This document shows positions 1 to 19,696 of a stretch of DNA of 64,000 nt, in pieces. The DNA is from Burkholderia sp. BCC0322. Lineage in GTDB: Bacteria > Pseudomonadota > Gammaproteobacteria > Burkholderiales > Burkholderiaceae. How positions within the stretch are numbered: position 1 is the stretch's first letter; each line of letters begins with the position of its first letter. The translations under genes were made by a program, and so were the position numbers. The notes under the pieces were generated by a model that was not told the DNA's origin, did no database searches, and saw nothing but the letters and a program-made list of their open reading frames with translations. The stretch lies in NCBI RefSeq assembly GCF_902833045.1, contig NZ_CADFDU010000004.1, forward strand, positions 186,001 to 250,000. Reading direction: 5' to 3'.

Positions 1-3000
1 GCGCTCGGATCCGTGCCGCTCGCGTCGGTTTTCGTCACGAGCAGGATCTCGGGCCCCTTCAGCGACGAGTTGCCATCGTTCGACACCACGACGCTGTTCG
101 CGATCGGCGTGATCGTCACGCCCTTGGTCGCCGCCGCACGTGTCCCGCCGATCAGCAGGCTGCCCGCATTCAGCGAATCTAGCGCGTCGCCGCCGATCTG
201 CAGATAGCCGGGCAACGCCGCGCTGCCGTTGCCGGTGACCTGGATGTCCTGCGACGCGATATCGACCTCCGCCGGCGCGCCGCCCGGGCCGGCCGCCGCG
301 TTCAGCGTCGCGCCAAGCGCGAGCGCCTTCGTCGCGGCCAGCACGAGCTGGCCGCCATCCACCGGCAGCGGCGGGGTCACGTTGCCCTGCTTCGCGGCCT
401 GCGCGGTGAAGAAGTCGTTCGCGCCCTTCAGCGTGTACTGCGAGTACTGCTGCCACGTCGCGCCCGACTGCACGTTGAAGAGCGTCGGCGTCGCGCTGCG
501 GCCGCCCGTCACCGCATCGGCAAAATATCCGGCCGTCATGACGGTGCCGTCCGGCAGCACCTGCGACGCGCCCGGCACGACGTTGCCGGTCGCGGCCGAC
601 ACGGTCACGCGGTACGCACCCGGCAGCGTCGCGTACTTGCCCGGCAGCAGTGTGTAGTAGCCGGGCGCGAGGCCCGGCACGCCGGAGAGGTACACGGCCT
701 TGCCGATCCCATCGTTCGACCCGGCCTGGCCGACGCCCAGCGTCACGGTCTTGGTCGTCGGCGTGCCGTTGCTGGCGACATCCGGCTGCACGGTCTGCGC
801 GAACAGCGGATCGTATGCGGCGACCGGCGATTGCGTGCCCGGCACGATCGCATAGACGTTCCCGCCGCCGGCATTGACCGGCACCGCCGTCGCGCCCTTG
901 CCGCTCGCATAGCTCACGTTGTATTGCGACAGCACGTCGCGCGTGCCGCCCGTGCCCGGCACCCATTCGGCAGCCTGCAGGTCGCCGCCGCCGGACAGGT
1001 CGATCGTCGCGCCCTTGTTGAGTGCGACGCTGGTGCCGTTGACCCCGATGTACTTCGCTGGCGGCGCATTCAGGTCCGACGCCGTCGTGCCAGCGATTGG
1101 ATTGAATTGCCATTCGACGCCATCGACCGTCGTGCCGTAAGGAATGATCGAACCGCCGTTCGAAACCGACGTCACGCTGCCGTTAGCGAAGGTCACCGAA
1201 TCCGTCGCCACGAGCGGCAGGTTGCCGAACTGCTTCTGCGTCGCACTGTTCGTCGGGTCGCCGACGCCGAACACGAGCGTGCCCGACGGCGCGCGCACGG
1301 TGCCGCCCTGCACGATGTTCGTCGCGTCGACGAGCAGCGTGCCGCCGGCTGACAGCGGCGTGCCGGACAAGCCGGTCGTGCCGAACGTGACGGTGGTCGG
1401 CACGGGTTTGCCGGTGGTCGAATCGACCGGGCCGACCGCGTCGACGATGAACGTGCTACCGGTCGCCGGATACACGTCCGCTGCCTTGAACGTCACGTTG
1501 CCAGGCGTGTACAGCATGCCGGGCGCCAGCCCGACGGGGCCGCTCTGCGCCGCGCTGGTCGAACCGAGTCGGATATCGCCGCTGCTCGTGAAGTTCGCTT
1601 GGCCGAAATTGTTCAGTTGGAACTGATTGCGCAGGTCGAGGAACGATGCGCTCACGTTCAGCGTCGCATCGGAGAGCGTCGCGACTGGCGCGAACGCGGG
1701 TGTCGATGAGGTTGCCGTCGGCCCCGCCAGCGCGACATAAGGTGCGTTGATCGTCACCGTCGTGCCGAGCGGATGTGCCGGCGGCTGCGCGAGCAGGTTC
1801 ACCAGCGCCGAATTGCCGTTCGCCGGGGTAGACAGCAGCGTCGAGAGTTGGTCCGTGCCGATCGCCGCGATGCGTCCGGTGTTCAGCGTCACCGATTCGG
1901 GCAACGTGAGGTTCACGTCGCCGGCAAACACGATCGGCGGCACCGGCGCAAGAATCGGAGACGGCGTGCTGTCACCCAGCACGAGATTCGCGATTCCCGA
2001 GTCGTTCAGGCGGTCGGCGGCGAACTGGATCACGCCGGTCGGCTGACCGATCGGCTGCCCCGTGGTCGGGTCGATCGTGACCGAGAAATCCTGGCCGGGT
2101 GCAAGCCCGACGGGAACGAGCATGCCGCTCTGCCGCACGACGAGTGCCGTTGCGCCGGCCGAGCCGCTGTTCTGATGCGGCAGGATCGTCAACGTGCCGC
2201 CACGAGCCTGCACCGCGCCACCGTGACCCGCCAGCGTCGCATCCGAGAAGAGACCGTAAGCGGCCGACAGCGTGATTGAGCCTGCATCGCTCCATACAGG
2301 CTGACGCGCATAGGTGCCGTTCGCCTGCAGTTGGTCGAAGTTCGCCGACGCGCCCGACACGTCTATCTTCGAACCCGCTTGTGCCACCACGTAGCCCGAA
2401 TCGCTCGACAGCGTCACCGCACCGCCCGGCAGAACCTTGCCGGTATTCGGCACGACAACCGTGCCACCGATCTTGACCGGCGCGGCAAGCGGATTGGCGA
2501 GCGCGACGCCCGATACGTCGAGCGTCGCGTCCGAACCGAGCCAGACCGACCGGCTGTTGCTCGGCGTGAAAACATTGAACTGGCCCGGTTGAGGTGCCGT
2601 GGTTCCGGTATCGGCGCTCAGCACGATCGACCCGCCCGGCGCGACCACCGAGCCGAGCACCGTCACCTGCTTCGGCGACGCCAGCGCAACACTCGCCCCG
2701 GCATCCGCATTGATCGATGCGCCCGCGGACAACGTGACCGCGCCCGCCACGCCCGGATACGACGGCACTGTGCCGCCGGACGCCGCTGTCAGCCACGAGA
2801 CGGCGTTGCCGCCGGTCAGCACGAGGCTCGTCGGTTGCCGGTGATACGTGTCGAGCTGGCCGATCGTCGTCAGGCCGCCCGTGGACAGGTTCGCGCCCGT
2901 CCCCGTCTGCAGGAGAGCCAGCGCGTCGGGCAGCAGGTTCCGTTGCGTCAGCGCAACCGTCGCGCCCGGCGCGATGGTCGAGTCGTAGTACGCGTTCAGC

Positions 3001-6000
3001 ACGTACTTGCCGAAGCCCTGTTGCGAGAAGAAGCTTTGCGGCAGATACACGTCCCACGGCGCCGCTGCCGCCTTGTCCCCGCCTATCCGGAAGCCGAGCG
3101 CGCCAAGCGTCATCGTGCCGCCGCCCGAGAAGCCGTCGCTCAGTATCGTGCCGCCCATTGCAATCGTACCGGCCGTCGGCTGAGTACCTGGCAGGTTCGC
3201 ACCGCCGTCGCCCGTATCACCGAATTGCGCGCCGCCGGCGGGGACCGCATACGTCTGCAACGCGACGTTGCCCCCGCGCCCGGCCGGCACGCCGTTCTGC
3301 ATCAGCAACTGGCCGTTCGCGAGCATTTCGCCGCCGCTCGATACGTCGAGCACACTGCCCGGTTGCAGCAGGATCGACCCCGTCGCATCGACGGCGTTGC
3401 CGTTCACGAAGGTCGAACTCTGCTTCGCCGACAGTGAAATGCTGCCGCCGTTGATGAACTGGCTATTGCCGGGTGTGGTGCCCGGCGCGGCCTGCACGTC
3501 GTTGTTCACCCACTGGCCGGCCGTGCTGATCACGCCCTGCGGCCCGACGACGACGTTGCCGCCGCTCGTGATCGAAATCGAACCGGACGGCGTGGACAGC
3601 CGCCCCGCGACATTCACGTCGGCGCCCGGCGCCGGACTGTCGAGCGAGATCGAGCCGCCCGGCTGCAGGTTCAGTTGCGTGCCTTGCGCGACCACGATGC
3701 CCTTGCCGGCGTTCTTGTCCTCGGTCACGTTCAGGTTCGCGAACCCGCCGTTGTTCAGCGTCGCGACCGGAACCACGCGCGTCGTGAACAGGTTGTTCGG
3801 ATCGTTGGCCGCCAGCGTTTGCGATGCGTTCTTGTCGAGCGGGGCATCGATCGAGAAACCCGGCATCAGCGTACTCAGTTGCGGCGCCGCATCCTGCAGG
3901 ATCGTCAATCCCGAAAGCGCACTAAGCGGCAGGGTCGAGACGTTGGCCGCACTGTTCCACGTCAGCCCGGCCAGCGCGTTGCCGGCCAGTTTCGGATCGG
4001 CACCCAGGTTGAACGTCCCGCCGGAAGGCAGGCTGTTGCCCTGCATCTGCTTCGCGCCGCCGAACGACTGCGCGCTGATGTCCCCGTCGAGTACCAGCGC
4101 CTGCGACGCGAACAGATCGAGCGTGCCCGCATTGCCGCCGACGATGTAATCGGACTGGTAAGTGCCGCTCGTCAGCAACGGGTTGTACCAGGATTTCGTC
4201 ACGCCCCAGCGGGGGTGGTTCTCGATGAACTGCCCGGCGATGCCGACATAATTGTCGTAAGGGCTCGCCTGCCCGATCGGCACGATCGCGCCGTTGGCAT
4301 CGACGAGCCGGGTCGTGTTGACGATCCCGCCGTTGTAATGCACATACCCGCCGTTCAGGTTCATCGACGAACCGGTCGCGGTCATCACCTCGTTGCCGGA
4401 CAGCGTGATCGTGCCGCCGTTGGTCAGCAACTGGTCGACGGTGCGCGGAATCAGGTTCACATAACCCGAAAGGTTCAAGATCGGGCTGCCGACCCATTGC
4501 ACGCCGTCGCTGCGCGTGCCCGTCAGCGTGCTGTCGACCACGACACCTTTCAGCCCGAACAGGAAGCTGTTGCGCAGCAGCGGCGAATCGGCCAGTTCGT
4601 TCTGGCCGATCCGGTCGACTGTCACGAGTGTCTGCAAAATCGGCGCCTGCACGTTCGCCAGGCCCGACACGTCGATCGTCGCGCCGTCGTCCACGTAGAT
4701 CCGGCCCGGCACCGCAGTCTGACCCGGCACCTGGTTCGTCACGACCGACGGCGCGTAGGCCGTCACCGACACGTTCGAACCCGGCGCCTCGATCAGCGAG
4801 CCGCCCTGGAACCACACGGAACCGGCCGTCATGGTGATGCCGCCCGGCGTGAAGGTCGTACCCGGCGTGGACGTTGCGGTCTGGCCGTTGTTGTCCGGCA
4901 GCGCCGTCGTCACCGATCCCTGGCCGAAGCTCAACAGGCCGGCACGATTGATGGTGTCGGCTCCGCCGCCGTTGCCCGTGACCGGCGTCGAACCGGTATA
5001 GGGAATACCCAGCGGATTGTTCGACGCATACTCGTCCGCGGTCGAGATCGTGATCGTCCCCGGCGTATTCACGCTCGTCGTCACGCCCACCACGCCGTTC
5101 TGTGCGACCCGGCTGCCGAGCAGGTTCACATTGCCGCGCGCGGCCTGCACGATACCCGTGTTCGTCAGCGTGCCGACGGGCGTGACGTCGATCGACGCGC
5201 CAGTAGCCGGATCGACCGTCACGATCTGCCCGCTCAGTTCCGGCAGCAGCACCTGCGGATTGATCGTTTTGCCCGAGTTAGGCAGCAGGCTCACCCCCAC
5301 CCCCGCCGCGAGCACGACCTGTCCCGACGTCGCCGAGATACTGCCGGCATTCGTCACGTTCGGCGCGGCGACCAGCACGAAACCGCCATCGCTTGCTGTG
5401 CCGTTGGTATGTGTCGTGATCGACGCGCCCTGCTCGATGGTCACATCACCCGGTGCCTGGTACGCACCAGTCAACGTCGCGCTGTTCCCCAGCCCCAGCA
5501 CCTCGTTCGGCTTGCCCCCCGACCCGACCGTCCCGCTCGAACTCCCCGACTCCGGATAAGCCAGCCCGCCTGTCGTTCCCGCCGGCAAGCTCAAGAACTG
5601 CTGGTTGCTCGCGACAATCCCCGCAGGCGTCGGCACGAGCTGGTTCTTCATGTCGAGCAGGTTCAGCGACGAAGCCACGAGCGAATGCACGTTGACCTGC
5701 GACCCGGCGCCGAACAGCACGCCGTTGCGGTTGATCACGTACACGGCGCCCTGGGCGGTGATGTTGCCGAGAATCTGGCTCGGTCTGCCGCTCGGATCGT
5801 TGATCCGGTTCAGCACGGCCCAGTTGTTCACGCCGTTGGTCTGCGTGCCGCCCGACTGATCGAAATTCAGCGTCGTCTGCCGGCCGACGTTCATCGTTTC
5901 CCACGTCAGCACCGCGTTCTGCCCGGTCTGCTTGACGTCGACGTTCACATGGCCGCTGCTGTCGACGTTCTGCGTCGGCGCGTTCGCGTTGAACCACAGC

Positions 6001-6431
6001 ACCGGATTGTTCGGATCGTTCGACGCACCGGCCGCCACCTGCAGCCCGCCCGGCGCGAGCCCGTTCGGCACGCTCGAAGGCAGCTTCGCCGCCGCCGCGG
6101 CCGCATTCTGCTGCGCGGCAATCTGCGCGGCGATCGCATGCGCGGCATACCCGAGGTTGCGGATCGACGGCTGGCTCGCCTGCAGCGCCTGCTGCGCCGA
6201 CACGCCCAGATTCGGCATGCCCGGCGCGCCACCGGCGCCGCCCACGCCGCCGCCCGATGCACGCGCGGCCGCCGCCCCGAGGTTCATGATGCCCGCCGCG
6301 TGCACGTGCGCGGACGCGCCCGCCAGCAGCATCAAGGCCACGGCCCGGACCAGCGGCCGCAGTTCCGATTTCAGGACCGGACGCGAGCCCGTCGCGTCAG
6401 GTTGTCGTGCCGTGCGTGCGCGTGCTGCCAT
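1..6431 (-). CDS. Filamentous haemagglutinin-family exoprotein (giant adhesin), 3' end outside window
   Basis: The frame is open for 2143 codons from an ATG at 6431 to the left edge, with no stop seen. The N-terminus has a basic stretch, a hydrophobic core at about residues 28-40 and a likely signal-peptidase site near AHVHA (residue 45). It is followed by a two-partner-secretion type domain at about residues 110-290, with typical motifs such as NVGRQTTLNF, INRNGVLFG and VASSLN. The rest is low-complexity, Gly/Thr/Ala/Asn-rich beta-helix-like sequence of the haemagglutinin type. It should be exported by Sec and displayed or released as a large beta-helical adhesin. No TpsB porin gene is in the window. 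Upstream lie three TPR-glycosyltransferases and two pseudopilins on the same strand, suggesting glycosylation and/or T2SS-related handling of this exoprotein (inference). A shared upstream element lies at 6588-6598. Confidence 0.88.
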   Translation of the reverse strand, partial: MAARARTARQPDATGSRPVLKSELRPLVRAVALMLLAGASAHVHAAGIMNLGAAAARASGGGVGGAGGAPGMPNLGVSAQQALQASQPSIRNLGYAAHAIAAQIAAQQNAAAAAAKLPSSVPNGLAPGGLQVAAGASNDPNNPVLWFNANAPTQNVDSSGHVNVDVKQTGQNAVLTWETMNVGRQTTLNFDQSGGTQTNGVNNWAVLNRINDPSGRPSQILGNITAQGAVYVINRNGVLFGAGSQVNVHSLVASSLNLLDMKNQLVPTPAGIVASNQQFLSLPAGTTGGLAYPESGSSSGTVGSGGKPNEVLGLGNSATLTGAYQAPGDVTIEQGASITTHTNGTASDGGFVLVAAPNVTNAGSISATSGQVVLAAGVGVSLLPNSGKTINPQVLLPELSGQIVTVDPATGASIDVTPVGTLTNTGIVQAARGNVNLLGSRVAQNGVVGVTTSVNTPGTITISTADEYASNNPLGIPYTGSTPVTGNGGGADTINRAGLLSFGQGSVTTALPDNNGQTATSTPGTTFTPGGITMTAGSVWFQGGSLIEAPGSNVSVTAYAPSVVTNQVPGQTAVPGRIYVDDGATIDVSGLANVQAPILQTLVTVDRIGQNELADSPLLRNSFLFGLKGVVVDSTLTGTRSDGVQWVGSPILNLSGYVNLIPRTVDQLLTNGGTITLSGNEVMTATGSSMNLNGGYVHYNGGIVNTTRLVDANGAIVPIGQASPYDNYVGIAGQFIENHPRWGVTKSWYNPLLTSGTYQSDYIVGGNAGTLDLFASQALVLDGDISAQSFGGAKQMQGNSLPSGGTFNLGADPKLAGNALAGLTWNSAANVSTLPLSALSGLTILQDAAPQLSTLMPGFSIDAPLDKNASQTLAANDPNNLFTTRVVPVATLNNGGFANLNVTEDKNAGKGIVVAQGTQLNLQPGGSISLDSPAPGADVNVAGRLSTPSGSISITSGGNVVVGPQGVISTAGQWVNNDVQAAPGTTPGNSQFINGGSISLSAKQSSTFVNGNAVDATGSILLQPGSVLDVSSGGEMLANGQLLMQNGVPAGRGGNVALQTYAVPAGGAQFGDTGDGGANLPGTQPTAGTIAMGGTILSDGFSGGGTMTLGALGFRIGGDKAAAAPWDVYLPQSFFSQQGFGKYVLNAYYDSTIAPGATVALTQRNLLPDALALLQTGTGANLSTGGLTTIGQLDTYHRQPTSLVLTGGNAVSWLTAASGGTVPSYPGVAGAVTLSAGASINADAGASVALASPKQVTVLGSVVAPGGSIVLSADTGTTAPQPGQFNVFTPSNSRSVWLGSDATLDVSGVALANPLAAPVKIGGTVVVPNTGKVLPGGAVTLSSDSGYVVAQAGSKIDVSGASANFDQLQANGTYARQPVWSDAGSITLSAAYGLFSDATLAGHGGAVQARGGTLTILPHQNSGSAGATALVVRQSGMLVPVGLAPGQDFSVTIDPTTGQPIGQPTGVIQFAADRLNDSGIANLVLGDSTPSPILAPVPPIVFAGDVNLTLPESVTLNTGRIAAIGTDQLSTLLSTPANGNSALVNLLAQPPAHPLGTTVTINAPYVALAGPTATSSTPAFAPVATLSDATLNVSASFLDLRNQFQLNNFGQANFTSSGDIRLGSTSAAQSGPVGLAPGMLYTPGNVTFKAADVYPATGSTFIVDAVGPVDSTTGKPVPTTVTFGTTGLSGTPLSAGGTLLVDATNIVQGGTVRAPSGTLVFGVGDPTNSATQKQFGNLPLVATDSVTFANGSVTSVSNGGSIIPYGTTVDGVEWQFNPIAGTTASDLNAPPAKYIGVNGTSVALNKGATIDLSGGGDLQAAEWVPGTGGTRDVLSQYNVSYASGKGATAVPVNAGGGNVYAIVPGTQSPVAAYDPLFAQTVQPDVASNGTPTTKTVTLGVGQAGSNDGIGKAVYLSGVPGLAPGYYTLLPGKYATLPGAYRVTVSAATGNVVPGASQVLPDGTVMTAGYFADAVTGGRSATPTLFNVQSGATWQQYSQYTLKGANDFFTAQAAKQGNVTPPLPVDGGQLVLAATKALALGATLNAAAGPGGAPAEVDIASQDIQVTGNGSAALPGYLQIGGDALDSLNAGSLLIGGTRAAATKGVTITPIANSVVVSNDGNSSLKGPEILLVTKTDASGTDPS

Positions 6432-6648
6432 TCTTCACCCCGAATCCTATGAAATTGCGCTGGACGACGGTCGCGCCGAAAGCGGCGCCGATCCGTTTTC
6501 GCGCTAGGTCGTTGCAACCGGGATCGAACCCGGCCACTGGAATCCCAAGACCATACGAAGGCCCGATGGCAGCGGCGTGGCGGGTGTTACGGACCATTCG
6601 GGCCGCTCGTGAAAGGTCCGTAGCTTTTGTCACAGTCGGACCGGCCGG
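6432..6648. promoter_or_regulatory. Promoter region of the adhesin gene, with inverted repeat
   Basis: This 217-bp gap separates the last TPR-glycosyltransferase gene from the adhesin. It contains TACGGACC at 6588-6595 and its exact inverse GGTCCGTA at 6615-6622, a dyad with 8-bp arms and a 19-bp spacer. The first arm extends to TACGGACCATT, which also occurs upstream of the other two transcription units of this island. The arrangement suggests an operator for a dimeric regulator (inference). Confidence 0.5.
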
Positions 6649-8889
6649 TCACACGGTGTCGCGATGCACGCGGATGCGGGCCGCGAGCGCGTGCGCCACG
6701 CGTTCGACCAGCGCCGGCCAGTCGCCGGGCAACCGCTGCCGGAACAGCGTCGCGGATGGATACCACGGGCTGTCGTCGCGTTCGAGCAGCCAGCGCCAGT
6801 CCGGCACGCGCGGCAGCATCACCCACACGGGGCGTCCGAGCGCGCCGGTCAGGTGCACGACCGACGTATCGACGGCGATCACCAGATCGAGCGTGTCGAC
6901 GAGCGCGGCCGTTTCCGCGAAATCCTTCAGCTCCGCCTCGAACGACAGCACGCCGCTTGCCGCGAAAGCTTCGGCGTCACGCGGGCGCACGCCGACCTGC
7001 AAGCTCACGAACGTCGCATCGAGCGCGACGAGCGGCGCGAGCGCGGCGAACGTCATCGACCGGTTTTCGTCGTTCGCATGAACCGGATTGCCCGACCACG
7101 CGAGCCCCACGCGCATTCGTCGCGGCGGAGCGAGCGCATCGAGCCGTTCGACCCATGCGGCGCGCCGTTGCGGGTCGGCATGCAGGTACGGCACGTCGGC
7201 CGGCACTGTGTCGAGCGTCGTGCGGAACGCGAACGGCAGGCTCATCATCGGGCAATGGAGATCGAATGCAGGCGCGGGCTGCCCGTCGGCGACGACGCGG
7301 CTCACGCCGCGCAGCGTGCCGAGCAGGTCGGCCAGCGCCGCCGGCGCATCGACCACGACCGTCGCGCCGCGCGCGTGCGCGAGGCTCGCGTAGCGGCAGA
7401 ACTGCAGCGTGTCGCCGAAACCCTGCTCCGCATGCAGCAGCAGCGTGCGGCCGGCGAGCGGTTCGTCGCCCGTCCATTGCGGTCGGTCCGGGTAACGCCG
7501 GTGCAGCGTCACGTCGGCGGCGTCCCAACGCGCTTCGTGCTGCCGCCAGCCGGTGTCGAAGTCGCCCATCACCAGGCGGCAGAACGCCTCGGACCGGCGC
7601 GCGACACCGTGATTCGGGTCGCGTACGCAGGCCAGCGCGAAATCCGCGAGTGCGGCGTCGTAATCGCCGAGCTGCTGGCGCGCGACGGCACGCGCATAGA
7701 TCTCCTGCGCCGTCCGGCCAGGCGCATCGATGGCCGCCGCGTAACTCGCGAGCGCATCGTCGTAGCGGCCCAGCAGTTGCAGCGCGATCGCGCGATTGCA
7801 CAGCACTTCCGCGTGCGGGCCGCGTGCTTCGAGCGCACGGTCGTAATGCGCGAGCGCTTCGTCGAACGCACCGAACGCCCGCAGCGCGCCGGCCCGGTTG
7901 CGCAGCGCGTCGAAATCCGCCGGCGCACGCGCGAGCGCTTCGCCGTATGCGTGCGCGGCTTCCTCGTGCCGCCTCAGCCCGAGCAGCGCGTTCCCTCGGC
8001 CGACCCACGCGCCCACGTTGTCGCGGTCGCGCGCCAGCAGCCGGTCGCTGCGCTTCAGCAACGCGTCACGCAAATGGAGCAGGTCGAGCGCGACACAACT
8101 CACGAACAGCAGTTGCACGTCGTCCGGCATCCGCGCGAGCGCTTCGTCGAGACACGCCAGCGCTTCGGCCGGACGCCCCAGTTCGATCAGCGTATAGCCG
8201 CACGCGTAGACGAGATCGGGCGTCTTGCCGCGCACCACCATCGCAAGCTGAAAGCAATGCAGCGCCGCTTCGCCGCGACCCAGCGCACGCAACGCATGAC
8301 CGCGTTCCGCAAGGGCTGCCGGGTCGTCAGCATCGAGCCGCAACGCGCGCTCGATGCTGATCAGTGCGTCGGCGGGCCGGCCGAGCGCGCGTAATGCCTC
8401 GCCGCGCCGGACCCACGACACCGCACGCCCCGGCTCACGCGTCAGCGCAAGATCGTAGGCGCCGACCGCTTCGCCATGCCGGCCGAGCGCATGCAGCGCG
8501 TCGCCGCGCGCCGCGTAGGCCGGCGCATGGCCGGGATCGCGCGCGAGCGCCTGCGCGGCCGCGTCGAGCGCTTCACGATGACGGCCCGTGCCGCTCAGCG
8601 CCTGCGCGTGATTCACGAAATTCCACGGGTGATTCAGCCCGGACTGCATCGAGCGCGCGATCAGCGGCTCCGCGCGCACGGCGTCGCCGAGTTGAAGATG
8701 CACGAACCCGAGCAGATGCAGCGCCTCGACGTGATCGGGGTTCATCGCCAGCACGCCCTCGTAGAGCCGTTTCGCGCCCGCGTAATCGCGTTGCTCGAGT
8801 CGCGCGCGCGCATTGCGCAGCGCATCGTCGACGGCGGCCCGCAGCGGCGCGGCACCCGCGCCGAACGTCGGCGCCTGCGCCGTGCTCAT
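6649..8889 (-). CDS. TPR-repeat protein with C-terminal glycosyltransferase-9-like domain (copy 1)
   Basis: A 746-aa protein. About residues 15-480 are tandem 34-residue tetratricopeptide repeats (for example YAGAKRLYEGVLAMNPDHVEALHLLGFV). About 510-740 is a GT-B-like domain related to ADP-heptose:LPS heptosyltransferases, with HAEQGFGDTLQFCRY, GLAWSGNPVHANDENRS and the nucleotide-sugar site DTSVVHLTGALGRPVWVMLP. Such proteins are predicted cytoplasmic protein or glycan glycosyltransferases. The start is the ATG that overlaps the stop of the upstream paralogue (ATGA, 8886-8889), so the two are translationally coupled. The next gene downstream is the giant adhesin, which makes it the obvious candidate substrate (inference). 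A much longer upstream open stretch in this frame is antisense noise. Confidence 0.85.
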   Translation of the reverse strand: MSTAQAPTFGAGAAPLRAAVDDALRNARARLEQRDYAGAKRLYEGVLAMNPDHVEALHLLGFVHLQLGDAVRAEPLIARSMQSGLNHPWNFVNHAQALSGTGRHREALDAAAQALARDPGHAPAYAARGDALHALGRHGEAVGAYDLALTREPGRAVSWVRRGEALRALGRPADALISIERALRLDADDPAALAERGHALRALGRGEAALHCFQLAMVVRGKTPDLVYACGYTLIELGRPAEALACLDEALARMPDDVQLLFVSCVALDLLHLRDALLKRSDRLLARDRDNVGAWVGRGNALLGLRRHEEAAHAYGEALARAPADFDALRNRAGALRAFGAFDEALAHYDRALEARGPHAEVLCNRAIALQLLGRYDDALASYAAAIDAPGRTAQEIYARAVARQQLGDYDAALADFALACVRDPNHGVARRSEAFCRLVMGDFDTGWRQHEARWDAADVTLHRRYPDRPQWTGDEPLAGRTLLLHAEQGFGDTLQFCRYASLAHARGATVVVDAPAALADLLGTLRGVSRVVADGQPAPAFDLHCPMMSLPFAFRTTLDTVPADVPYLHADPQRRAAWVERLDALAPPRRMRVGLAWSGNPVHANDENRSMTFAALAPLVALDATFVSLQVGVRPRDAEAFAASGVLSFEAELKDFAETAALVDTLDLVIAVDTSVVHLTGALGRPVWVMLPRVPDWRWLLERDDSPWYPSATLFRQRLPGDWPALVERVAHALAARIRVHRDTV

Positions 8890-11129
8890 CGCGACGCTCC
8901 CGCCATCAGCGCCGGCAACGCGTCGCGGAGGCGCTCGACGACCGGCGCCCACTGTCCGCCCTCGGGCTGGCGAAACAGTCGCGCACCCGGATACCACGGG
9001 CTGTCGTCGCGATCGAGCAGCCAGCGGAAATCCGGCGTGTGCGGCAGCATCACCGCGAGCGGCCGGCCGAGCGCGCCGGCCAGGTGCGCGACCGACGTAT
9101 CGACGCTGATCACCGCATCCATCGCGTCGACCAGCGCGGCCGTTTCCGCGAAATCCGTCAGTTCGTCGCCGACGAAGCGGATCGGGCTCGCATCGAGCAC
9201 CGCGCGATCCTCGTCGCGGATCACCTTCTGCAGGCTGATCCATTCGAAGCGGTCGTCGAGCAGCGGCAACAGGTCGGCGAGCGTGATCGAGCGGTTGCGG
9301 TCGTTCAGGTGCAGCGGGTTGCCGGACCACACGAGGCCGATGCGCGGCCGGTCAGCCGCGCCCAGCCGCACGCGCCAGTGTTCGACCCGCGCGGGATCGG
9401 CGCGCAGGTACGGCACACTCGCCGGGATCGACGACAGGTCGGTGCGGAATTCGAGCGGCAGGCTCAACAGCGGGCAATGCAGGTCGAACGGCGGCAGCGG
9501 GTCGCCGCGCGCGACGAGCACGTCGATGCCGTCGAGCGTCGCGAACAGCGCCTTCAGCTCGACCGGCGCCTCGACCACCACGCGTGCGCCGAGCGCCTTC
9601 ACGAGCGGCACGTAGCGGCAGAACTGCAGCGTGTCGCCGAGCCCCTGCTCCGGATACAGCAGGATCGTCTGCCCGTCGAGCGGCATCCCGTGCGTCCAGC
9701 GCGGCTGCGCGAAATCGCGCCGGCTGCCGTCGAGCTGGCTGTCGCGCCAGCGCCATTCGTATTCGGCCCAGCCGGCCTCGAAGTCGCCGATCGACAGGCA
9801 CAGGAACGCGCGCATGCAGTGCGCGGGCGCATAGTCGGGATCGATGTCGATCGCTTCCGCATACGCGTGCAGCGCATCCTCGTGCCGCCGCAGCGCGCGC
9901 AACGCGTTGCCGCGATGGAAATGCGCAAGCTTGTCGCGCGGCGTCGCGGCGATCACGCGCGCGAGATCGTCGAGCGCGTCGTCGTAGCGATGCGTTTCGA
10001 GCCGGACACGCGCACGCGTGAACGATGCGGGCGCATAGTGCGGATCGATCGCCAGCGCGCGATCGCACATGTCGTGCGCGTCGTCGTGTCGCGCCACCTG
10101 CATCAGCGCGCTCGCGTAGTTGCACAGCACGCCCGTGCTGCCCGGCTCGACGTCGAGTGCGCGCGCATAGCTGTCGACCGCATCCGCGAAGCGGCCCAGA
10201 TGGCTCGCCGCATTGCCGCGATTGGCGAGCGAGCGCGCATGGCGCGGGTCGAGCGCGAGCGCGCGGTCGCAGCGCACCAGCGCCTCGTCGTGCCGCCCGA
10301 GCTGTTCGAGCGCGATCGAACTGTTGAAGATTGCATCGACGAACGTCGGGCTCGCCGCGATCGCCGCATTGAAATCCGCCAGCGCGTATTCGGGGTCGTG
10401 CAGGTCGAGATACGCGACGCCGCGCAGGAACAGCGCGTCGGCGCTGCCCGGTCGCAGGGCAAGCGCGTGACCATAGCTGTCTGCCGCTTCGCGGAAGCGG
10501 CCGAGCTCGCGCAGTGCGAGCCCGCGTGCGCGCATCGCGTCGAACGTGCGGCCCGCGAGCGCGATCGCGCGATCACAATCGGCGAGCGCAGCGTCGAAGC
10601 GGCCGAGTGCGCGCCGCATGTCGCTGCGTTTCACGTAACCGTCGGCGAACCCCGGCGTGAGTTCGAGGAGACGATCATAGACCGCGCACGCTTCGTCGTA
10701 CCGTGCGAGTTGCGCGAGCAGCCCGGCCCGCTGGAACAGCACGCGCTGGTGCACGGGATTGATCGCGAGCGCCTCGTCGAGCCGCGCGAGCGCATCGTGC
10801 TCGCGCCCGAGCCCGGCCAGCACGGCCGAGTAGTTCGCGAGCGCGAGCGGCACCGGCTGGCGCTCGACCGAGCGCCGCATCAGCGGCTCGGCATCGTCGA
10901 GCCGGCCCTGCTGGAAGCGCACCGCGCCGAGCAGGTGCAGCGCCTCCGGATGCTCGGGATCGAGCGCCAGCAGCTCGGCGTAGGCATGCTCCGCATGCTG
11001 CAGCGCGCCTTCGTGATGCGCCTTGCGTGCACGCACGAGCAGCCGTTCGAGCTGCATGGTGTCGGGCGGACGCCGATCCGGCGCGACCGTCGCGCTCGCC
11101 AATGTCGTCCCTTCCCCGTTCGGTGTCAT
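8886..11129 (-). CDS. TPR-repeat protein with C-terminal glycosyltransferase-9-like domain (copy 2)
   Basis: A 747-aa paralogue of its two neighbours with the same architecture: about 12 TPR units, then a GT-9-like domain with YPEQGLGDTLQFCRYVP, GLVWSGNPLHLNDRNRS, DTSVAHLAGALGRPLAVMLP and RDDSPWYPGARLF. It follows the upstream copy by 42 bp and overlaps the downstream copy by ATGA, indicating one operon. Three full-length copies with intact signature motifs argue for distinct acceptor or sugar specificities or a multi-step glycan, rather than decaying duplicates (inference). Confidence 0.85.
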   Translation of the reverse strand: MTPNGEGTTLASATVAPDRRPPDTMQLERLLVRARKAHHEGALQHAEHAYAELLALDPEHPEALHLLGAVRFQQGRLDDAEPLMRRSVERQPVPLALANYSAVLAGLGREHDALARLDEALAINPVHQRVLFQRAGLLAQLARYDEACAVYDRLLELTPGFADGYVKRSDMRRALGRFDAALADCDRAIALAGRTFDAMRARGLALRELGRFREAADSYGHALALRPGSADALFLRGVAYLDLHDPEYALADFNAAIAASPTFVDAIFNSSIALEQLGRHDEALVRCDRALALDPRHARSLANRGNAASHLGRFADAVDSYARALDVEPGSTGVLCNYASALMQVARHDDAHDMCDRALAIDPHYAPASFTRARVRLETHRYDDALDDLARVIAATPRDKLAHFHRGNALRALRRHEDALHAYAEAIDIDPDYAPAHCMRAFLCLSIGDFEAGWAEYEWRWRDSQLDGSRRDFAQPRWTHGMPLDGQTILLYPEQGLGDTLQFCRYVPLVKALGARVVVEAPVELKALFATLDGIDVLVARGDPLPPFDLHCPLLSLPLEFRTDLSSIPASVPYLRADPARVEHWRVRLGAADRPRIGLVWSGNPLHLNDRNRSITLADLLPLLDDRFEWISLQKVIRDEDRAVLDASPIRFVGDELTDFAETAALVDAMDAVISVDTSVAHLAGALGRPLAVMLPHTPDFRWLLDRDDSPWYPGARLFRQPEGGQWAPVVERLRDALPALMAGASR

Positions 11130-11171
11130 CGTGTGGCCCCCACTGATCGCTGTTCGTATCGCGTGTCGTGT

Positions 11172-13394
11172 CTAACGTGTCATCGGTTCGAGCGCGGCAC
11201 GCACCGCGTCGATCGCATCGGCCCAGTGGCCGGGCGCCGGCTGGCGAAACAGCCGCGCGGACGGATACCACGGGCTGTCGTCGCGCTTGCGCATCCAGCG
11301 CCAGGCCGGCGGGTCGGGCAACAGCACCCAGACGCGCGCCCCCAGCGCACCCGCCAGATGCGCGACCGCGGAATCGGTCGCGATCACGAGATCCAGCGCG
11401 CCGATCAATGCGGCCCGGTCCGCGAAATCACCGAGCGCGTCGTCGACGCGGCGCACCGGCGCCTCCGCCAGCCACGCGGCATCGCGTTCATCCGGTGGTG
11501 TCTGCAGGCTGATCCAGTCGACGTCGAGATCGAACAGCGGCGCGAGTCGCGCGACATCGATCGACCGGCCGGCGTCAGCCCGTCGCGCCGGCTCGCCCGC
11601 CCAGGCAAGCCCGACACGCAGCCTGCGCCGCTCGCCGAGCAGCGCGTCCCACTGGCGCGTGCGCTGCGGGTCCGCATGCAGGTACGCGGCAGTGCCCGGA
11701 ATGGTGTCTGCGCCGGTGCGGAACGCATGCGGCAGGCTCGGCAGCGGCACATGGCAGTCGAAGGCGGGAAGCGGCTCGCCGCGCGCGATCACATGGGCCG
11801 CGCCAGTGAGCGACGCCATCAGCGCGCGCAACGACGGCGGCACCTCGAGCACCACGCGTGCGCCGCGCACCGCGACGAGCGGGACATAGCGGCAGAACTG
11901 CAGCGTGTCGTCGATGCCCGGCTCCGCATGGATCAGGATCGTCTTGCCGTCGAGCGGTTCGTCGCCCCGCCACACCGGCTGCGTGAACGGCCGCGCATGG
12001 CGCGCGAACGGCGTATCGCGCAGCCGCCATTCATACCCGCGCCAGCCGCGCGCGAAGTCGCCTTCCGTCAGGTGCAATGCTGCACGCGCGCAGTGTGCGG
12101 CGGCGAAGTCGGGTTGCAGCGCGAGCGCACGATCGAAGGCGGTGAACGCCTCATCCACCTGCCCCGTCTCGGCAAGCAGGTTGCCGCGAGCCAGCCAGTT
12201 CGTGGCAACCTCGGGGCGTAGCGCAAGCGCACGATCGACCGACGCGATCGCTTCGTCGTAGCGATGCAGGTCCCGCAGCACGTTGGCGCGGTTCGTCCAC
12301 GCTTCGGCGAAATGCGGGTCGAGCGCCAGCGCGGCATCGTAGCTGGCAAGCGCCGCGTCGAAGCGCTGCAGGTCGCGCAGCACGGTGCCGCGATTGCACA
12401 GCGTGTCGTCCGAGCGCGGATCGATGGCCAGCGCCCGTTCGTAGCTGTCGAGTGCGTCGTCGTGACGCTCGAGTTGCAGCAGCGCATTGCCGCGGCCCGC
12501 GAGTGCGCGGACATGCTCCGGATCGAGCGCCAGCGCCCGCTCGCAACGCGCCAGCGCTTCGTCCGCGCGCCCCAGCCGTTCGAGCACGGCCGCGCTGTCG
12601 CAGAGTGTGTCGAGCCGCTCGGGATCGGCCGCGAGCGCGTCGTTGAAGGCGGCAAGCGCCTCGTTCAGACGGTCGAGCTCGGCGAGCGTACGGCCGCGCG
12701 CCGTCACGATCGCGGCGACGCCCGGCCGGATCGCGTTCGCGCGATCGAAGCAGTGCAGCGCATCGGCCGCGCGCCGCAACTCGCGCAGCACGAGGCCGCG
12801 GTTGAACCACGATTCGAACGATTGCGGATCGACCATCAGGGCGCGGTCGTAGGTATCGAGTGCATCGTCGAGGCGGCCGAGCGCACGCAGCGCGCCGCCG
12901 CGATTGCAGAGCGCGTCGAGCACGAGCGGCGACACCGCGAGCGCACGATCGAACGACGCAAGCGCGTCGTCGTAGCGGCGCAGGCCGATCAACGTATTGC
13001 CGTGGCGCACGAGCGTCTGCACGTCGTCGGGCGCTGCGCGCAGCGCGGTCGCGAAAAGCCCGAGCGCCTCGTCGATGCGGCCGCGCTCGCCGACGATCGC
13101 GCCGAGATCTGACAGCGCGCGCACGTCCGGCGCGATCGCGATCGACTGGCGCAGCAGCGCTTCGGCCTGATCGGCCGCACCGCGCTGGAATTGCAGCACG
13201 CCGTACAGATGCAGCGCCTGCGGATGATCGGGCTCCTTCGCGAGCACCGCGAGATAGTCCCGTGCCGCGTCGTCGAAGCGACCGGCGCCGTGCCACTGCT
13301 GTGCGCGGCCCAGAATCGCCGCCGACTGCCATTGCCCGGGTGCGCCGTGTCCCGACGCGCCCGCGTGTGCATCATGCCGGTGCTCGACCGTCAC
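11172..13394 (-). CDS. TPR-repeat protein with C-terminal glycosyltransferase-9-like domain (copy 3, first of operon)
   Basis: A 740-aa protein. The GTG start at 13394 is chosen because a purine-rich SD (GGAAGGGGGCG) lies just upstream. N-terminal TPR array to about residue 480; C-terminal GT-9-like domain with HAEPGIDDTLQFCRYVP, VGLAWAGEPARRADAGRS, TDSAVAHLAGALGARVWVLLP and KRDDSPWYPSARLF. The normally GFGDTLQF-type motif reads GIDDTLQF here, so a Gly of the motif is replaced. It opens the three-gene glycosyltransferase operon, and the shared 11-bp element lies 117 bp upstream. Confidence 0.85.
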   Translation of the reverse strand: MTVEHRHDAHAGASGHGAPGQWQSAAILGRAQQWHGAGRFDDAARDYLAVLAKEPDHPQALHLYGVLQFQRGAADQAEALLRQSIAIAPDVRALSDLGAIVGERGRIDEALGLFATALRAAPDDVQTLVRHGNTLIGLRRYDDALASFDRALAVSPLVLDALCNRGGALRALGRLDDALDTYDRALMVDPQSFESWFNRGLVLRELRRAADALHCFDRANAIRPGVAAIVTARGRTLAELDRLNEALAAFNDALAADPERLDTLCDSAAVLERLGRADEALARCERALALDPEHVRALAGRGNALLQLERHDDALDSYERALAIDPRSDDTLCNRGTVLRDLQRFDAALASYDAALALDPHFAEAWTNRANVLRDLHRYDEAIASVDRALALRPEVATNWLARGNLLAETGQVDEAFTAFDRALALQPDFAAAHCARAALHLTEGDFARGWRGYEWRLRDTPFARHARPFTQPVWRGDEPLDGKTILIHAEPGIDDTLQFCRYVPLVAVRGARVVLEVPPSLRALMASLTGAAHVIARGEPLPAFDCHVPLPSLPHAFRTGADTIPGTAAYLHADPQRTRQWDALLGERRRLRVGLAWAGEPARRADAGRSIDVARLAPLFDLDVDWISLQTPPDERDAAWLAEAPVRRVDDALGDFADRAALIGALDLVIATDSAVAHLAGALGARVWVLLPDPPAWRWMRKRDDSPWYPSARLFRQPAPGHWADAIDAVRAALEPMTR

Positions 13395-13510
13395 GTTCGC
13401 CCCCTTCCCGTTTGCCGATGCCGCCGCTGAGCCGGTCGATGAAACCGGTCGCGTCGGTCATGCTCGTGACGAGACTAACGGACGGCCAATAACAGACGTA
13501 TGACGAAAGT

Positions 13511-13521
13511 TACGGACCATT
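13511..13521 (-). promoter_or_regulatory. Shared 11-bp upstream element, copy at the glycosyltransferase operon
   Basis: TACGGACCATT on the + strand (AATGGTCCGTA in the gene direction), 117 bp upstream of the GTG at 13394, in the gap after gspJ. An imperfect inverse CGGAC...GTCCG pair spans 13513-13528. Identical 11-mers occur at 6588-6598 and 14799-14809, each ahead of another unit of the same island. Confidence 0.5.
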
Positions 13522-13582
13522 TTGTCCGGGTGACGGAACGGCACTCGGGGCCTGGCCGCGTGCACCGGACGGCATCCCGCGC

Positions 13583-14251
13583 TTACTGGCCGATCGGGAT
13601 CGTCCGCACGTATTCGACAGCCGGCGCGCCCATGGTCACCGAGAAGCGCACTCCGCGCGGCACCGGCACGCCGATCGACGTCGAGTTGCTGATGCCGTGC
13701 TGCGCGAGAAACTGCGCATAGGACTGTTCGATGGCGGCCTGGCTCGTCGTCCATCCGCCGGGCGGGATCCACACGGAAAGCTGCATCGAGCGCGCATCAT
13801 TGCTGACCACCACGCGCGCGAACGCATCCATGTGATGCAGCGCGTCGTCCACCTCGGCGAGCGACGCAAGCGGCTGCGACGCACTGCGCACGAGCTCGCG
13901 CCCGTTGAGCTGGTAGCGCACCACCTGCATCTGCGTCGGCCCACCGCCGACGCCGAGATGGCGCACCATCACGAGTTCGCCCGGACGGATGCGCAGCGGC
14001 GGCCCGAATACTTCGTCGGGCGTGACGAGGTTCGTCAGGTCGAACTGCAGTTGGGAGAAGTAGCGCCCGAGCAGACGCGTTTGCGCCAGATTCGACGCGA
14101 TATCGTCGCGGCCGCGGATCGTCGCATCGAGGCCGCGCCACGACAGCAGCGCGATCACGGCGAGCAGCGCGATCGCAACCAGCATCTCGATCAGCGTGAA
14201 GCCGCGGGCACGGTCACGCGCCGCCGCGCGCGGGTCAGCGGCGCGCTTCAT
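13583..14251 (-). CDS. gspJ: Type II secretion minor pseudopilin GspJ
   Basis: A 222-aa protein with a short basic leader followed by RGFTLIEMLVAIALLAVIAL at about residues 15-35, the prepilin-peptidase recognition site (cleavage before Phe, Glu+5) and hydrophobic helix. The body matches GspJ (SQLQFDLTNLVTPDEVF; GVRFSVTMGAPAVEYVRTIP). In T2SS it forms part of the I-J-K tip of the pseudopilus in the inner membrane and periplasm. Its ATG lies inside the 3' end of gspI (17-nt overlap). The usual partner gspK is not next to it; TPR-glycosyltransferase genes follow instead. Confidence 0.88.
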   Translation of the reverse strand: MKRAADPRAAARDRARGFTLIEMLVAIALLAVIALLSWRGLDATIRGRDDIASNLAQTRLLGRYFSQLQFDLTNLVTPDEVFGPPLRIRPGELVMVRHLGVGGGPTQMQVVRYQLNGRELVRSASQPLASLAEVDDALHHMDAFARVVVSNDARSMQLSVWIPPGGWTTSQAAIEQSYAQFLAQHGISNSTSIGVPVPRGVRFSVTMGAPAVEYVRTIPIGQ

Positions 14252-14675
14252 TCTGGATCACCGTGACGACTTCGGCGAGCACGTTGCGGCTCGATGCGGA
14301 CGGATACACGCTCACCGTCACGCGACGCACGAGCGGGCTCGGCAGCGCGGCCACCGACTGGCGGCACACGAAGCGGTAGCGGCCCTGCGGACAGGCAAAC
14401 GTGTTCGAGCCGACGGACGGCCAGGTCGATGCGATGCGGATCTCGCCGAGCGCATTGTCGGCGCTCCATAACGCGAGCAGGCGCATGCGCGCCATGTCGG
14501 TATCCGACGCGAGCGCGCCGATCGCGCGCATCACGGCGCCGAGTGCCACGGCGACGATCGCCAGCGCGATCAGCACCTCGATCAGCGTGAATCCCCGTTC
14601 CGGCGCCCGCGCCGTGCGCGATCCGCCACGCGCATGGCGGTTGTAGTCGGTTCTGTCGTCGCACATGACCTGCAT
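14235..14675 (-). CDS. gspI: Type II secretion minor pseudopilin GspI
   Basis: A 146-aa protein if started at the ATG at 14675. A second ATG at 14666 has AGG just upstream, and the frame stays open to 14783. The prepilin site RGFTLIEVLIALAIVAVALG is followed by the GspI-type body (LALWSADNALGEIRI, FACPQGRYRFVC). The later starts are preferred because the shared upstream element at 14799 then sits about 125 bp upstream, as for its sister units. First gene of the gspI-gspJ pair. No gspG, H or K is present in the window, so the set is either split or served by a T2SS encoded elsewhere. Confidence 0.85.
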   Translation of the reverse strand: MQVMCDDRTDYNRHARGGSRTARAPERGFTLIEVLIALAIVAVALGAVMRAIGALASDTDMARMRLLALWSADNALGEIRIASTWPSVGSNTFACPQGRYRFVCRQSVAALPSPLVRRVTVSVYPSASSRNVLAEVVTVIQNEARR

Positions 14676-14980
14676 TCTTGTCGATGGGTCGTCGTCCGGC
14701 GTCCGGCGTTCAAATCGCGGCGCGAAGCCGCATCGCCGGCGCGACGGGCGCCGTGCAGGGACGTTAAGCGCAGCGTATGGCACACACGTGTCGAATGGTA
14801 CGGACCATTTGGCGCGGCGAGCGCGGACGAACCGGCGCGCAGGAACGCCGCATGCGCTGTCGCGCGTCGCGCAGCACGACGCTCGGGCAAACGGAAATCT
14901 GAAAAACGATTGGGAAAAACCGCCCGGCGGCGGGCGGTGAACAGTGAAGACGATCCTCGGGCGGAATCGACGCGACGGCG
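14676..14980. other. Intergenic region: gspI promoter element and opposing terminator
   Basis: No gene is seen. It holds the third copy of the TACGGACCATT element at 14799-14809, here inside an AATGG-N6-CCATT dyad (14794-14809), and the intrinsic terminator at 14915-14938 that serves the small gene to the right. Confidence 0.55.
14915..14938 (-). terminator. Intrinsic terminator of the 68-aa gene
   Basis: Perfect 8-bp stem ACCGCCCG / CGGGCGGT with a GCGG loop, followed on the minus strand by TTTTT. It lies 43 bp downstream of the stop of the 14981-15187 gene and isolates it from gspI. Confidence 0.75.
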
Positions 14981-18650: not shown

Positions 18651-19696
18651 AGGCCGCCGGCATCGCCCGCCCCTCCATCAAAGGCCGCGTGATCGCACTG
18701 GCGATCGTCGCGCTCGGCATCGCGGCACTCGTGTACGCGTACCACCGCACGACGGCCTACCCGTCCACCGACGACGCATCGATCGACGCGGACGTCGTGC
18801 ACGTCGCGTCGCCGGTCGGCGGCCGCATCGTGCAGCTCGCCGTGCATGAAAACCAGCGCGTCGCGAAGGGCGACCTGCTGTATGTCATCGATCCGGTGCC
18901 GTACCGGTTGACGGTTGCGCAGGCGCAGGCCGACCTCGAGCTCGCGCGCGCATCGCTCGACACGCGCCGCCGTTCGCTGATCGGCGAGCGCTCGAACGCG
19001 GCCGTGGCGGCCGAGCAGGTCAAGCGCGCGACGCAGAATCACGACCTTGCGACGCGCGACGTGAACCGGCTCGCACCGCTCGCCGCGCAGGGCTACGTCA
19101 GCGCGCAGCAGTTCGACCAGGCGAAGGTCCGCCAGCGCGACGCGGCCGTGTCGCTCACGCAGGCACAGGAACAGCAGCGCGCGTCCGCGCAGACGATCGG
19201 CGACGAGGCCGACGCGATCGCGACGCTGCATGCGCGCGAGGCCGCGCTGGCCCGCGCGCAGCACGCGCTCGAAGACACCGTCGTGCGCGCGCCGCACGAT
19301 GGCCTCGTGACGGGCCTGAGCGTGCTCGCCGGCGAAACCCTTGCGCCGAACCAGTCGATCTTCACGCTGATCGACGCGAGCGAATGGTTCGCCGTCGGCA
19401 ACTTCCGCGAGACGTCGCTGAGCCGCATCGCGGTCGGCGACTGCGCGACCGTCTATTCGATGATCGACCGCAGCCGCCCGCTGACGGGCAAGGTCGTCGG
19501 CATCGGCGCAGGCATCGCCGACAGCGCCCGCATCAACCTGCCGCGCACGCTGCCGATCGTGCAGAACTCGGTGAACTGGGTGCACGTCGCGCAGCGCTTC
19601 CCCGTACGCGTGAAGCTCGACGAACCCGACGGCACGCTCGTGCGCGTCGGCGCCAGTGCGATCGTCGAGGTCCGGCATGGCACTGCCTGCCGCTGA
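18647..19696 (+). CDS. mdtN: Efflux periplasmic adaptor subunit, MdtN type (HlyD family)
   Basis: A 349-aa protein with one N-terminal membrane helix (about residues 14-33), a biotinyl-lipoyl-like half (STDDASIDADVVHVASPVGG), a long alpha-hairpin (about 90-200, Ala/Gln-rich) and a C-terminal beta-barrel (VVRAPHDGLVTGL, LIDASEWFAVGNFRETSL). It would bridge the inner-membrane MdtO and the outer-membrane MdtP. MdtNOP is implicated in resistance to sulfa drugs and other toxic aromatics in E. coli. Confidence 0.87.
   Translation: MKAAGIARPSIKGRVIALAIVALGIAALVYAYHRTTAYPSTDDASIDADVVHVASPVGGRIVQLAVHENQRVAKGDLLYVIDPVPYRLTVAQAQADLELARASLDTRRRSLIGERSNAAVAAEQVKRATQNHDLATRDVNRLAPLAAQGYVSAQQFDQAKVRQRDAAVSLTQAQEQQRASAQTIGDEADAIATLHAREAALARAQHALEDTVVRAPHDGLVTGLSVLAGETLAPNQSIFTLIDASEWFAVGNFRETSLSRIAVGDCATVYSMIDRSRPLTGKVVGIGAGIADSARINLPRTLPIVQNSVNWVHVAQRFPVRVKLDEPDGTLVRVGASAIVEVRHGTACR

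Follow-up and report, generated by a model that had tools for sequence, protein, structure and literature searches.

In Pseudomonas aeruginosa, the PUMA3 (VreA-VreI-VreR)/Hxc/PdtA-PdtB locus brings together a VreA-like protein with STN and TonB domains, an extracytoplasmic function (ECF) sigma factor, a FecR protein, a type II secretion system (T2SS), a TpsA protein with a DUF3739 domain, TpsB, ExbB, ExbD, TonB, and a porin. A 64,000-nucleotide stretch of DNA from Burkholderia sp. BCC0322 (contig NZ_CADFDU010000004.1, forward-strand positions 186,001 to 250,000; hereafter the window) carries part of an island with a similar gene set, in which one 11-bp element lies upstream of the pseudopilin gene gspI, a glycosyltransferase operon, and the gene for a large adhesin. 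Judging by symmetry and conservation, this 11-mer belongs to a longer, 16-bp site with two-fold symmetry, AAWGNTNCGTANCWTT on the gene strand, of which it is the best-kept stretch; the longer site is a predicted protein-binding site and almost certainly a real operator. The site directly abuts a predicted PHO box, and so the three units would share a composite PhoB-plus-X promoter, X being the protein that binds the dyad.

The context of the island is known in kind, both from its resemblance to PUMA3/Hxc/Pdt and because B. vietnamiensis has already been listed with a PUMA3 homologue plus hxc-like and tpsA-like genes in an earlier report (PMC2729926). The P. aeruginosa VreI promoters (pdtA and phdA) require PhoB and a pho box (PMC4971064). 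In the Burkholderia genome G003, the orthologue of the adhesin is 4291 aa long and contains DUF3739 (PF12545). It is followed by two PBP_like_2 proteins, gspF, gspH, a VreA-like protein with STN and TonB domains, a VreI-like ECF sigma factor, and a VreR-like FecR anti-sigma factor, and further on by gspK, TpsB, ExbB with DUF2341, ExbD, TonB, and a putative porin. Other islands add genes that we read as gspD, gspG, gspL, and gspM-like, as well as DUF4915, an APS kinase, a PPIase, and a trypsin-like protease. Genes for vreA (STN and TonB domains), the ECF sigma factor, and FecR thus stand beside T2SS and two-partner secretion (TPS) genes, except in islands that are VreI-less. Unlike P. aeruginosa PUMA3, the islands described here have the dyad and a Phd-like gene, and in some of them no VreAIR was found.

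Results

The 11-mer TACGGACCATT is found exactly at 6588-6598, 13511-13521, and 14799-14809, each time on the plus strand, as the original prediction had it. Since all three downstream units lie on the minus strand, it reads AATGGTCCGTA in the gene direction. Measured to the start codons that we chose as likely, it stands 124 bp ahead of gspI (ATG at 14675), 117 bp ahead of the first glycosyltransferase gene, GT1 (GTG at 13394), and 157 bp ahead of the adhesin gene (ATG at 6431), and the spacing claimed for the three units is borne out (117-157 bp). An inverted copy of TACGGACCATT with one mismatch lies at 6612-6622.

To describe the site we compared 21 islands, namely that of G003 and 20 others (40 kb each) drawn from the 48 genomes with an exact 11-mer, long contigs being preferred; the loci of G060, G014, G036, and G049 are outside this set. 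The 21 islands yielded 120 copies of the element, each picked because it differs from the 11-mer at no more than one base, and the conservation of positions 1-11 therefore comes partly from selection. Complementary pairs were seen in 92 of these copies at positions 1/16, 99 at 2/15, 87 at 3/14, 119 at 4/13, 19 at 5/12, 120 at 6/11, 2 at 7/10, and 120 at 8/9; pairs 5/12 and 7/10 are free. Because pairs 6/11 and 8/9 fall inside the selected letters, the informative pairs are those that reach positions 12-16. The full dyad pattern is present in 83/120 copies, indicating that the right arm, outside the selected 11 letters, is often symmetric too. By site, it is found in 19/20 gspI copies, 21/21 glycosyltransferase copies, and 21/21 copies of the distal, inverted site at the adhesin gene. 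The adhesin promoter has two dyads, whose centres are 29.0 bp apart in all 21 islands, and paired sites about 27-28 bp apart also precede the adhesin gene of G215, G359, G371, G387, and G165. Two classes of copies speak against a symmetric site: the full pattern is met in 0/21 proximal dyads at the adhesin gene and in 2/17 copies of the class that we call el5, the right arms being degenerate. The exact 11-mer is kept in the proximal adhesin dyad of 21/21 islands.

The original prediction had also argued that such an 11-mer would hardly recur three times by chance. Here the number of recurrences in the window is weak evidence on its own, as 912 distinct 11-mers are present at least three times in it (strands merged), 42 of them with at least five A/T; it is position and conservation that carry weight. 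In each of G002-G005 (Burkholderia, 7.6-9 Mb) the exact 11-mer occurs three times and only at these three places, the chance expectation from base composition being ≈1.8 for an 8.7-Mb genome, and a whole-genome search of G006 (Paraburkholderia) gave 0 copies. Across the genus, 48/65 genomes contain it, many with a triplet spaced ≈1.3 and 6.9 kb and others with scattered single copies. With up to one mismatch, the gspI copy was found in 20/21 fetched islands and the glycosyltransferase and adhesin copies in 21/21 each, and further copies lie near phosphate-binding-protein genes, in the region upstream of them.

Searches with the dyad pattern gave a similar distribution. In 10 genomes there were 44 matches, all inside the island, versus 3 for the reversed pattern. 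The 65 genus genomes gave 151 matches, which fall at 147 places because four symmetric ones count twice, versus 9 for the reversed pattern; these counts, like those for 398 family genomes given below, are among the matches listed. Two of the 151 are clearly elsewhere, both in G054, and nearly all the others are in one island, with the three of G055 and the two of G060 (C240) unchecked by gene content and several more assigned by contig position relative to VreI. Genome-wide, then, the element is not a common one without a link to promoters, and together with its conservation in orthologous loci these counts support the proposal that one regulator or promoter class joins pseudopilins, glycosyltransferases, and adhesin. 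We refine that proposal in that the unit is a 16-bp dyad, which combines with a PHO box and a -10 into a composite promoter, making up one half of it, and which is present twice at the adhesin gene. Neither a TACGGACCATT-type element nor the dyad is described in the open-access literature that we searched.

Read 5' to 3', the composite consists of the dyad (positions 1-16), a PHO box of two CTGTCAT-like 7-bp half-sites with an 11-bp period (positions 16-22 and 27-33) that directly abuts it, a spacer of 10 nt (11 nt ahead of the glycosyltransferase operon), and a -10 starting with TA. When a PHO box was scored at all offsets, offset 15 was best independently in the gspI, glycosyltransferase, adhesin, and el5 classes, with scores of 8.2, 10.5, 9.9, and 8.7 of 14, respectively, and means of ≈3.4. 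TA lies 10 or 11 nt past the PHO box, at positions 44-45 or 45-46, in 79/79 copies of these four classes (11 nt in 20/21 glycosyltransferase copies), and TAnnnT is present in 62/79, which belong to the gspI, glycosyltransferase, and adhesin classes. The promoter elements in the window are as follows.

14794..14809, minus strand: dyad upstream of gspI, AATGGTCCGTACCATT, holding the 11-mer 14799-14809
14777..14794, minus strand: PHO box of the gspI promoter, TCGACAC GTGT GTGCCAT, from the offset scan
14761..14766, minus strand: predicted -10 TAACGT of the gspI promoter, 10 nt past the PHO box; TAnnnT in 20/20 copies here
13506..13521, minus strand: dyad upstream of the glycosyltransferase operon, AATGGTCCGTAACTTT
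13489..13506, minus strand: PHO box of the glycosyltransferase promoter, TCGTCAT ACGT CTGTTAT, 11/14 consensus matches
13472..13477, minus strand: predicted -10 TAGTCT of the glycosyltransferase promoter, 11 nt past the PHO box; TAnnnT in 20/21 copies here, one base nearer in the other
6612..6627, plus strand: second dyad of the adhesin promoter, in opposite orientation, AAAGGTCCGTAGCTTT, then one PHO-like half-site, TTGTCAC
6583..6598, minus strand: proximal dyad upstream of the adhesin gene, AATGGTCCGTAACACC, right arm degenerate
6566..6583, minus strand: PHO box of the adhesin promoter, CCGCCAC GCCG CTGCCAT
6550..6555, minus strand: predicted -10 TATGGT of the adhesin promoter, 10 nt past the PHO box; TAnnnT in 21/21 copies here

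Some classes of copies count against the composite. TAnnnT is found in 0/17 copies of el5, though TA is present; the classes el4, el4p, and el3r are without TA at position 44 or 45, one el3r copy excepted; and el4 and el3r reach PHO scores of just 6.8 and 6.7 with another offset best, el4p being unscored. Given the scores and spacing in the remaining classes, we consider it quite probable that the dyad promoters have a PHO box and are controlled by PhoB.

Promoters of the E. coli phoA/pstS type and the Burkholderia pst promoter are alike in having two 7-bp half-sites 11 bp apart and 10 nt to the -10. By eye, the pst promoter of G003 reads TTGTCAC ATTA CCGTCAT, 10 nt, TAACCT, the same layout as in the island promoters, which differ from both in carrying an additional 16-bp dyad immediately ahead of the PHO box. 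The dyad pattern has no match at the pst promoter in the same genomes. Within the island, PHO-like boxes, again judged by eye, also lie in the conserved DNA ahead of vreA and tpsB, where there is no dyad. Since pst, vreA, and tpsB have PHO or PHO-like boxes and no dyad, just some of the PhoB-type promoters are marked by the dyad. One might alternatively regard the 11-mer as a third, upstream PhoB half-site, which would fit its 11-bp phase with the PHO half-sites and the extra upstream half-sites that the pst promoter appears by eye to have. Its GTCCGTA is unlike CTGTCAT, however, and it is better conserved than the PHO half-sites, forms part of a symmetric site, and is unmatched at pst, making this interpretation very improbable.

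Our first choice for the main reader of the dyad was VreI, based on the co-occurrence of VreI and dyads in the genus. The 11-mer or dyad would then be the -35 or an auxiliary part of a PhoB-assisted sigmaVreI promoter, comparable to those of pdtA and phdA, for which a need for PhoB and a pho box is reported (PMC4971064). VreA-I-R homologues are encoded in the island, and dyads are present in 34/34 VreI-positive genus genomes versus 4/31 VreI-negative ones (p 2e-14, kinship ignored). Three of the latter four, G014, G036, and G049, keep just the gspI copy after loss of the island, and the fourth, G060, is a fragmented draft. Within the sample of 398 family genomes, 42 encode a VreI of at least 79% identity; exact dyads were found in 41 of these and, at one or two per genome, also in 42 of the remaining 356. 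When the stretches fetched from the ten VreI genomes outside the first sample were scored with a profile, all ten proved dyad-positive, even G179, where no dyad matches exactly.

The composite promoters and dyads remain, however, in islands where no VreI was found. Five T2SS/TPS islands without detected VreAIR (G006, G057, G231, G157, and G347) have 2, 1, 2, 0, and 2 dyads above threshold, compared with 0 in ≈105 kb of flank and shuffled means that sum to 0.06. Promoters picked in VreI-less islands solely by PHO box and TAnnnT numbered 11 versus 0.48 expected (32 search windows), and their palindromicity peaks at the dyad position, at 3.8/8 versus a mean of 2.0 (z 3.7, top of 95 shifts). Moreover, the adhesin genes beside paralogous vreAIR cassettes in G035 and G053 are without a dyad, and the site is symmetric, unlike an ECF -35. 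The order of elements differs as well: the island has dyad-PHO-(-10), whereas P. aeruginosa is reported to have PHO-(-35)-(-10) (PMC4971064), a comparison in which no P. aeruginosa promoter was aligned. The -10 seen at the island PHO boxes is sigma70-like. Not all the evidence is on one side: of the 11 promoters of VreI-less islands, five have at least 5/8 pairs where the palindromicity peaks, but a single promoter has just 2 and another three have 1 each. The species are related, and the genomes are thus not independent. Because VreI-less islands retain the composite, X is probably not VreI and in those islands the composite is independent of the VreI system. We therefore dropped VreI as the main reader of the dyad, a role that we now consider unlikely for it.

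The preferred candidate for this role is a Phd/YefM-like domain, which is present in every non-decayed dyad-bearing island that we examined, either as a stand-alone protein or joined to a degenerate IS4 transposase. In Burkholderia-type islands it forms the strongly conserved C-terminal part of an IS4-transposase-like protein of ≈550-600 aa, with orthologues beyond the two examples given here.

G003 C1:185535-187199 (L094:6536-8203): IS4-like/Phd-like fusion
G137 L202:3295-5031: IS4-like/Phd-like fusion

The fusion gene occupies a fixed place in the island in 30/31 fetched segments, and the remaining segment ends before it. In VreI-less islands a stand-alone open reading frame (ORF) adjacent to gspK encodes the Phd-like protein, with a length of 73-123 aa (222 aa in one case), and three of these islands have another copy close to gspI. 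PF02604 matches 11/11 fusions and 13/13 domains, with a best E value of 8.4e-9 and scores below the gathering score where seen. Phd-like matches with E values of 1.1e-18 or better occur in 42/398 family genomes, identical to the 42 with VreI of at least 79% identity, and weaker stand-alone matches (E 1e-10 to 1e-15) occur in VreI-less or remote-VreI islands. The Phd-like gene of G231 has a homologue in 8/8 other islands and is the sole shared gene read as DNA-binding, although not every frame was family-scanned. In G006, G057, and G231 the matched domain is preceded by dyads at a distance of 220-280 bp, and in G347 a TACGTA site lies upstream. Across six islands, TACGTA occurs 29 times in 150 kb of island versus 5 times in 104 kb of flank (p 0.0014).

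Known YefM/Phd members are palindrome-binding dimers, and YefM acts on paired palindromes with a TGTACA core (PMC4803016). The island proteins resemble these autorepressors in their weak PF02604/TIGR01552 similarity, in that the island dyads can be paired, and in the TGT-NCGN-ACA core of several VreI-less dyads. They differ in their targets, which would be secretion and adhesin promoters, in the position of the domain in Burkholderia as the C terminus of an IS4-like protein, and in that no partner toxin was seen, toxin families not having been searched for; the G231 comparison likewise revealed no conserved small partner beside the stand-alone Phd-like gene.

The body of the fusion matches NF033592 (IS4) with an E value of 1e-11 and 44.5 bits, the cut-off being 115 (one member scanned). 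Its predicted structure has a mean predicted local distance difference test (pLDDT) score of 69 and a predicted template modelling (pTM) score of 0.72, and comparison with the PDB by Foldseek placed Tn5 transposase first (E 2e-6), the best five matches all being Tn5 transposase or transposase inhibitor. In NF033592 similarity and predicted fold, the fusion body is thus like IS4/Tn5 transposases, but the fusion is under the family cut-off and is held at a fixed island place, and the third catalytic residue of its transposase part seems to be lost. A domain-profile search of the sequences of solved structures gave weak matches for the Phd-like domain, the best being Rv2865 (E 0.07).

Several results weigh against the Phd/YefM-like domain as the dyad-binding protein. 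The full Phd-like proteins score under the Pfam and NCBIfam cut-offs, and comparison with the E. coli YefM profile is weak (probability 34%, E 4e-4, 40 columns). In the fusion model the domain is predicted with low confidence (block means 43-60), no antitoxin is among the best 50 Foldseek matches listed, and the Phd fold is unconfirmed by structure. A search for autoregulation found no dyad upstream of the fusion gene itself in 30 islands, and 12 of the 29 island TACGTA sites are inside genes, the other 17 being intergenic. G157 and G103 carry a Phd-like gene and no dyad above threshold, and G035 has two dyads and no Phd-like match. The island of G035 is decayed, with one dyad preceding a GT1 remnant and with gspD, F, G, H, and K absent from the 80 kb fetched, and its dyads may thus be relics. 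From these sequence and model comparisons, we consider the case for the Phd/YefM-like protein of the island as the dyad binder to be evenly balanced.

Alternatively, the protein on the dyad could be a dimeric regulator whose gene lies elsewhere in the genome. Dyad binding by the Phd-like domain is a prediction, and the absence of a dyad from the promoter of the fusion gene and the retention of dyads in G035 would both suit an outside regulator. The sites, however, are almost solely at island genes, the two clear exceptions among the 151 matches listed both being in G054, so that the regulon of such an outside protein would be confined to one island. We regard such a regulator as somewhat unlikely.

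A second protein accompanies the fusion. UNK306, a protein of 306 aa (L202:2354-3199, minus strand, and orthologues), is encoded beside it on the opposite strand, with 65-93% identity across eight aligned members, and the first member scanned belongs to no family of note. It was considered as a binder and rejected after no match was found in seven regions; a single factor acting in every island could therefore not be this protein.

With a transposase-derived gene in the island, and with three island-less genomes that keep the gspI copy at the left edge, the copies might also be mobile-element repeats or island recombination sites. They stand, however, at fixed spacing to the PHO box and TA in four promoter classes, and in G014, G036, and G049 the deletion ends inside or beside gspI and not at the dyad. 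The position of these deletion ends disfavours recombination sites, and we find this explanation as a whole scarcely credible.

The genes downstream of the composite promoters in the window are listed here.

14235..14675, minus strand: gspI, minor pseudopilin of the type II secretion system (T2SSI; Pfam PF02501, E 1.6e-19), start chosen by us
13583..14251, minus strand: gspJ-like pseudopilin with N-methylation motif, from a homologue search; the name gspJ is our reading
11172..13394, minus strand: tetratricopeptide repeat (TPR) glycosyltransferase 1 (GT1), TPR families and sub-threshold Glyco_transf_9
8886..11129, minus strand: TPR glycosyltransferase 2, TPR families and Glyco_transf_9
6649..8940, minus strand: TPR glycosyltransferase 3, start uncertain, TPR families and sub-threshold Glyco_transf_9
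1..6431, minus strand: large filamentous-haemagglutinin-type adhesin (TpsA), open frame cut by the window start; start codon chosen by us

Elsewhere in the window, an ORF at 19656-21824 (plus strand) encodes a membrane-protein-like product with a long SSA repeat (SSASSASSASS...), perhaps a variable-length tract. About 10 kb upstream of gspI in G003 (C1:142009-144064) are genes that we take to be cepI-like, rsaM-like, and cepR-like; the dyad is presumably unlike the quorum-sensing cep box. The Burkholderia genomes G014, G036, and G049 (L198, L200, and L199) have lost the island but retain the promoter element of gspI together with some of the gspI 5' end. G035 (C2) and G053 (C150) have tandem vreAIR-tpsA cassettes, whose VreI paralogues share 57-59% identity and whose adhesin genes have no dyad.

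Discussion

The composition of the island promoters, their spacing, their conservation, and their near-confinement to one island are present in the sequence itself. The best overall explanation for them, which we hold with slightly better than even confidence, is a PhoB-driven composite of dyad operator and PHO box with the Phd/YefM-like domain on the dyad. PhoB on the PHO box would switch on the gspIJ, glycosyltransferase, adhesin, and phosphate-binding-protein units under phosphate limitation, using what is predicted to be sigma70-type RNA polymerase. If the TA is taken as -12/-11, the PHO box would extend from -40 to -23 and the dyad from -55 to -40, with the two touching, and a second dimeric regulator bound to the dyad at about -55 to -40 would touch the PhoB site.

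Because the dyad protein would adjoin the PhoB site, its likeliest role is to help or to block PhoB, and this would apply to the dyad promoters but not to those of pst, vreAIR, or Burkholderia tpsB. The constancy of the spacing across promoter classes and genera points to contact or competition between two proteins and not to a free-standing repressor. The promoter would then act as a two-input gate, one input being phosphate starvation via PhoB and the other a second signal via the dyad-binding protein. As to the sign of the effect of this protein, we lean slightly toward a gate on PhoB. The best candidate would be the Phd/YefM-like domain, which forms a protein of its own in Paraburkholderia-type islands and, in Burkholderia, the C terminus of the fusion. 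More tentatively, and a little short of an even chance in our estimation, an antitoxin-type domain captured as the C terminus of a domesticated IS4 transposase may have become the dedicated regulator of the island, working on a PhoB-joined operator such that phosphate starvation and a second signal are both needed.

The dyad and its companion elements provide a pattern-searchable sequence code for membership of a secretion-adhesin programme, and, insofar as the predicted PHO boxes are a guide, they place this programme under likely phosphate control in Burkholderia, for which there is no report in the open-access literature searched. Two inputs, PhoB and a dyad-binding protein, can now be separated, and an unexpected candidate is named for the second. 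Finally, the VreI-less islands suggest that PUMA3-like islands may do without the ECF sigma system and yet retain the promoter code.

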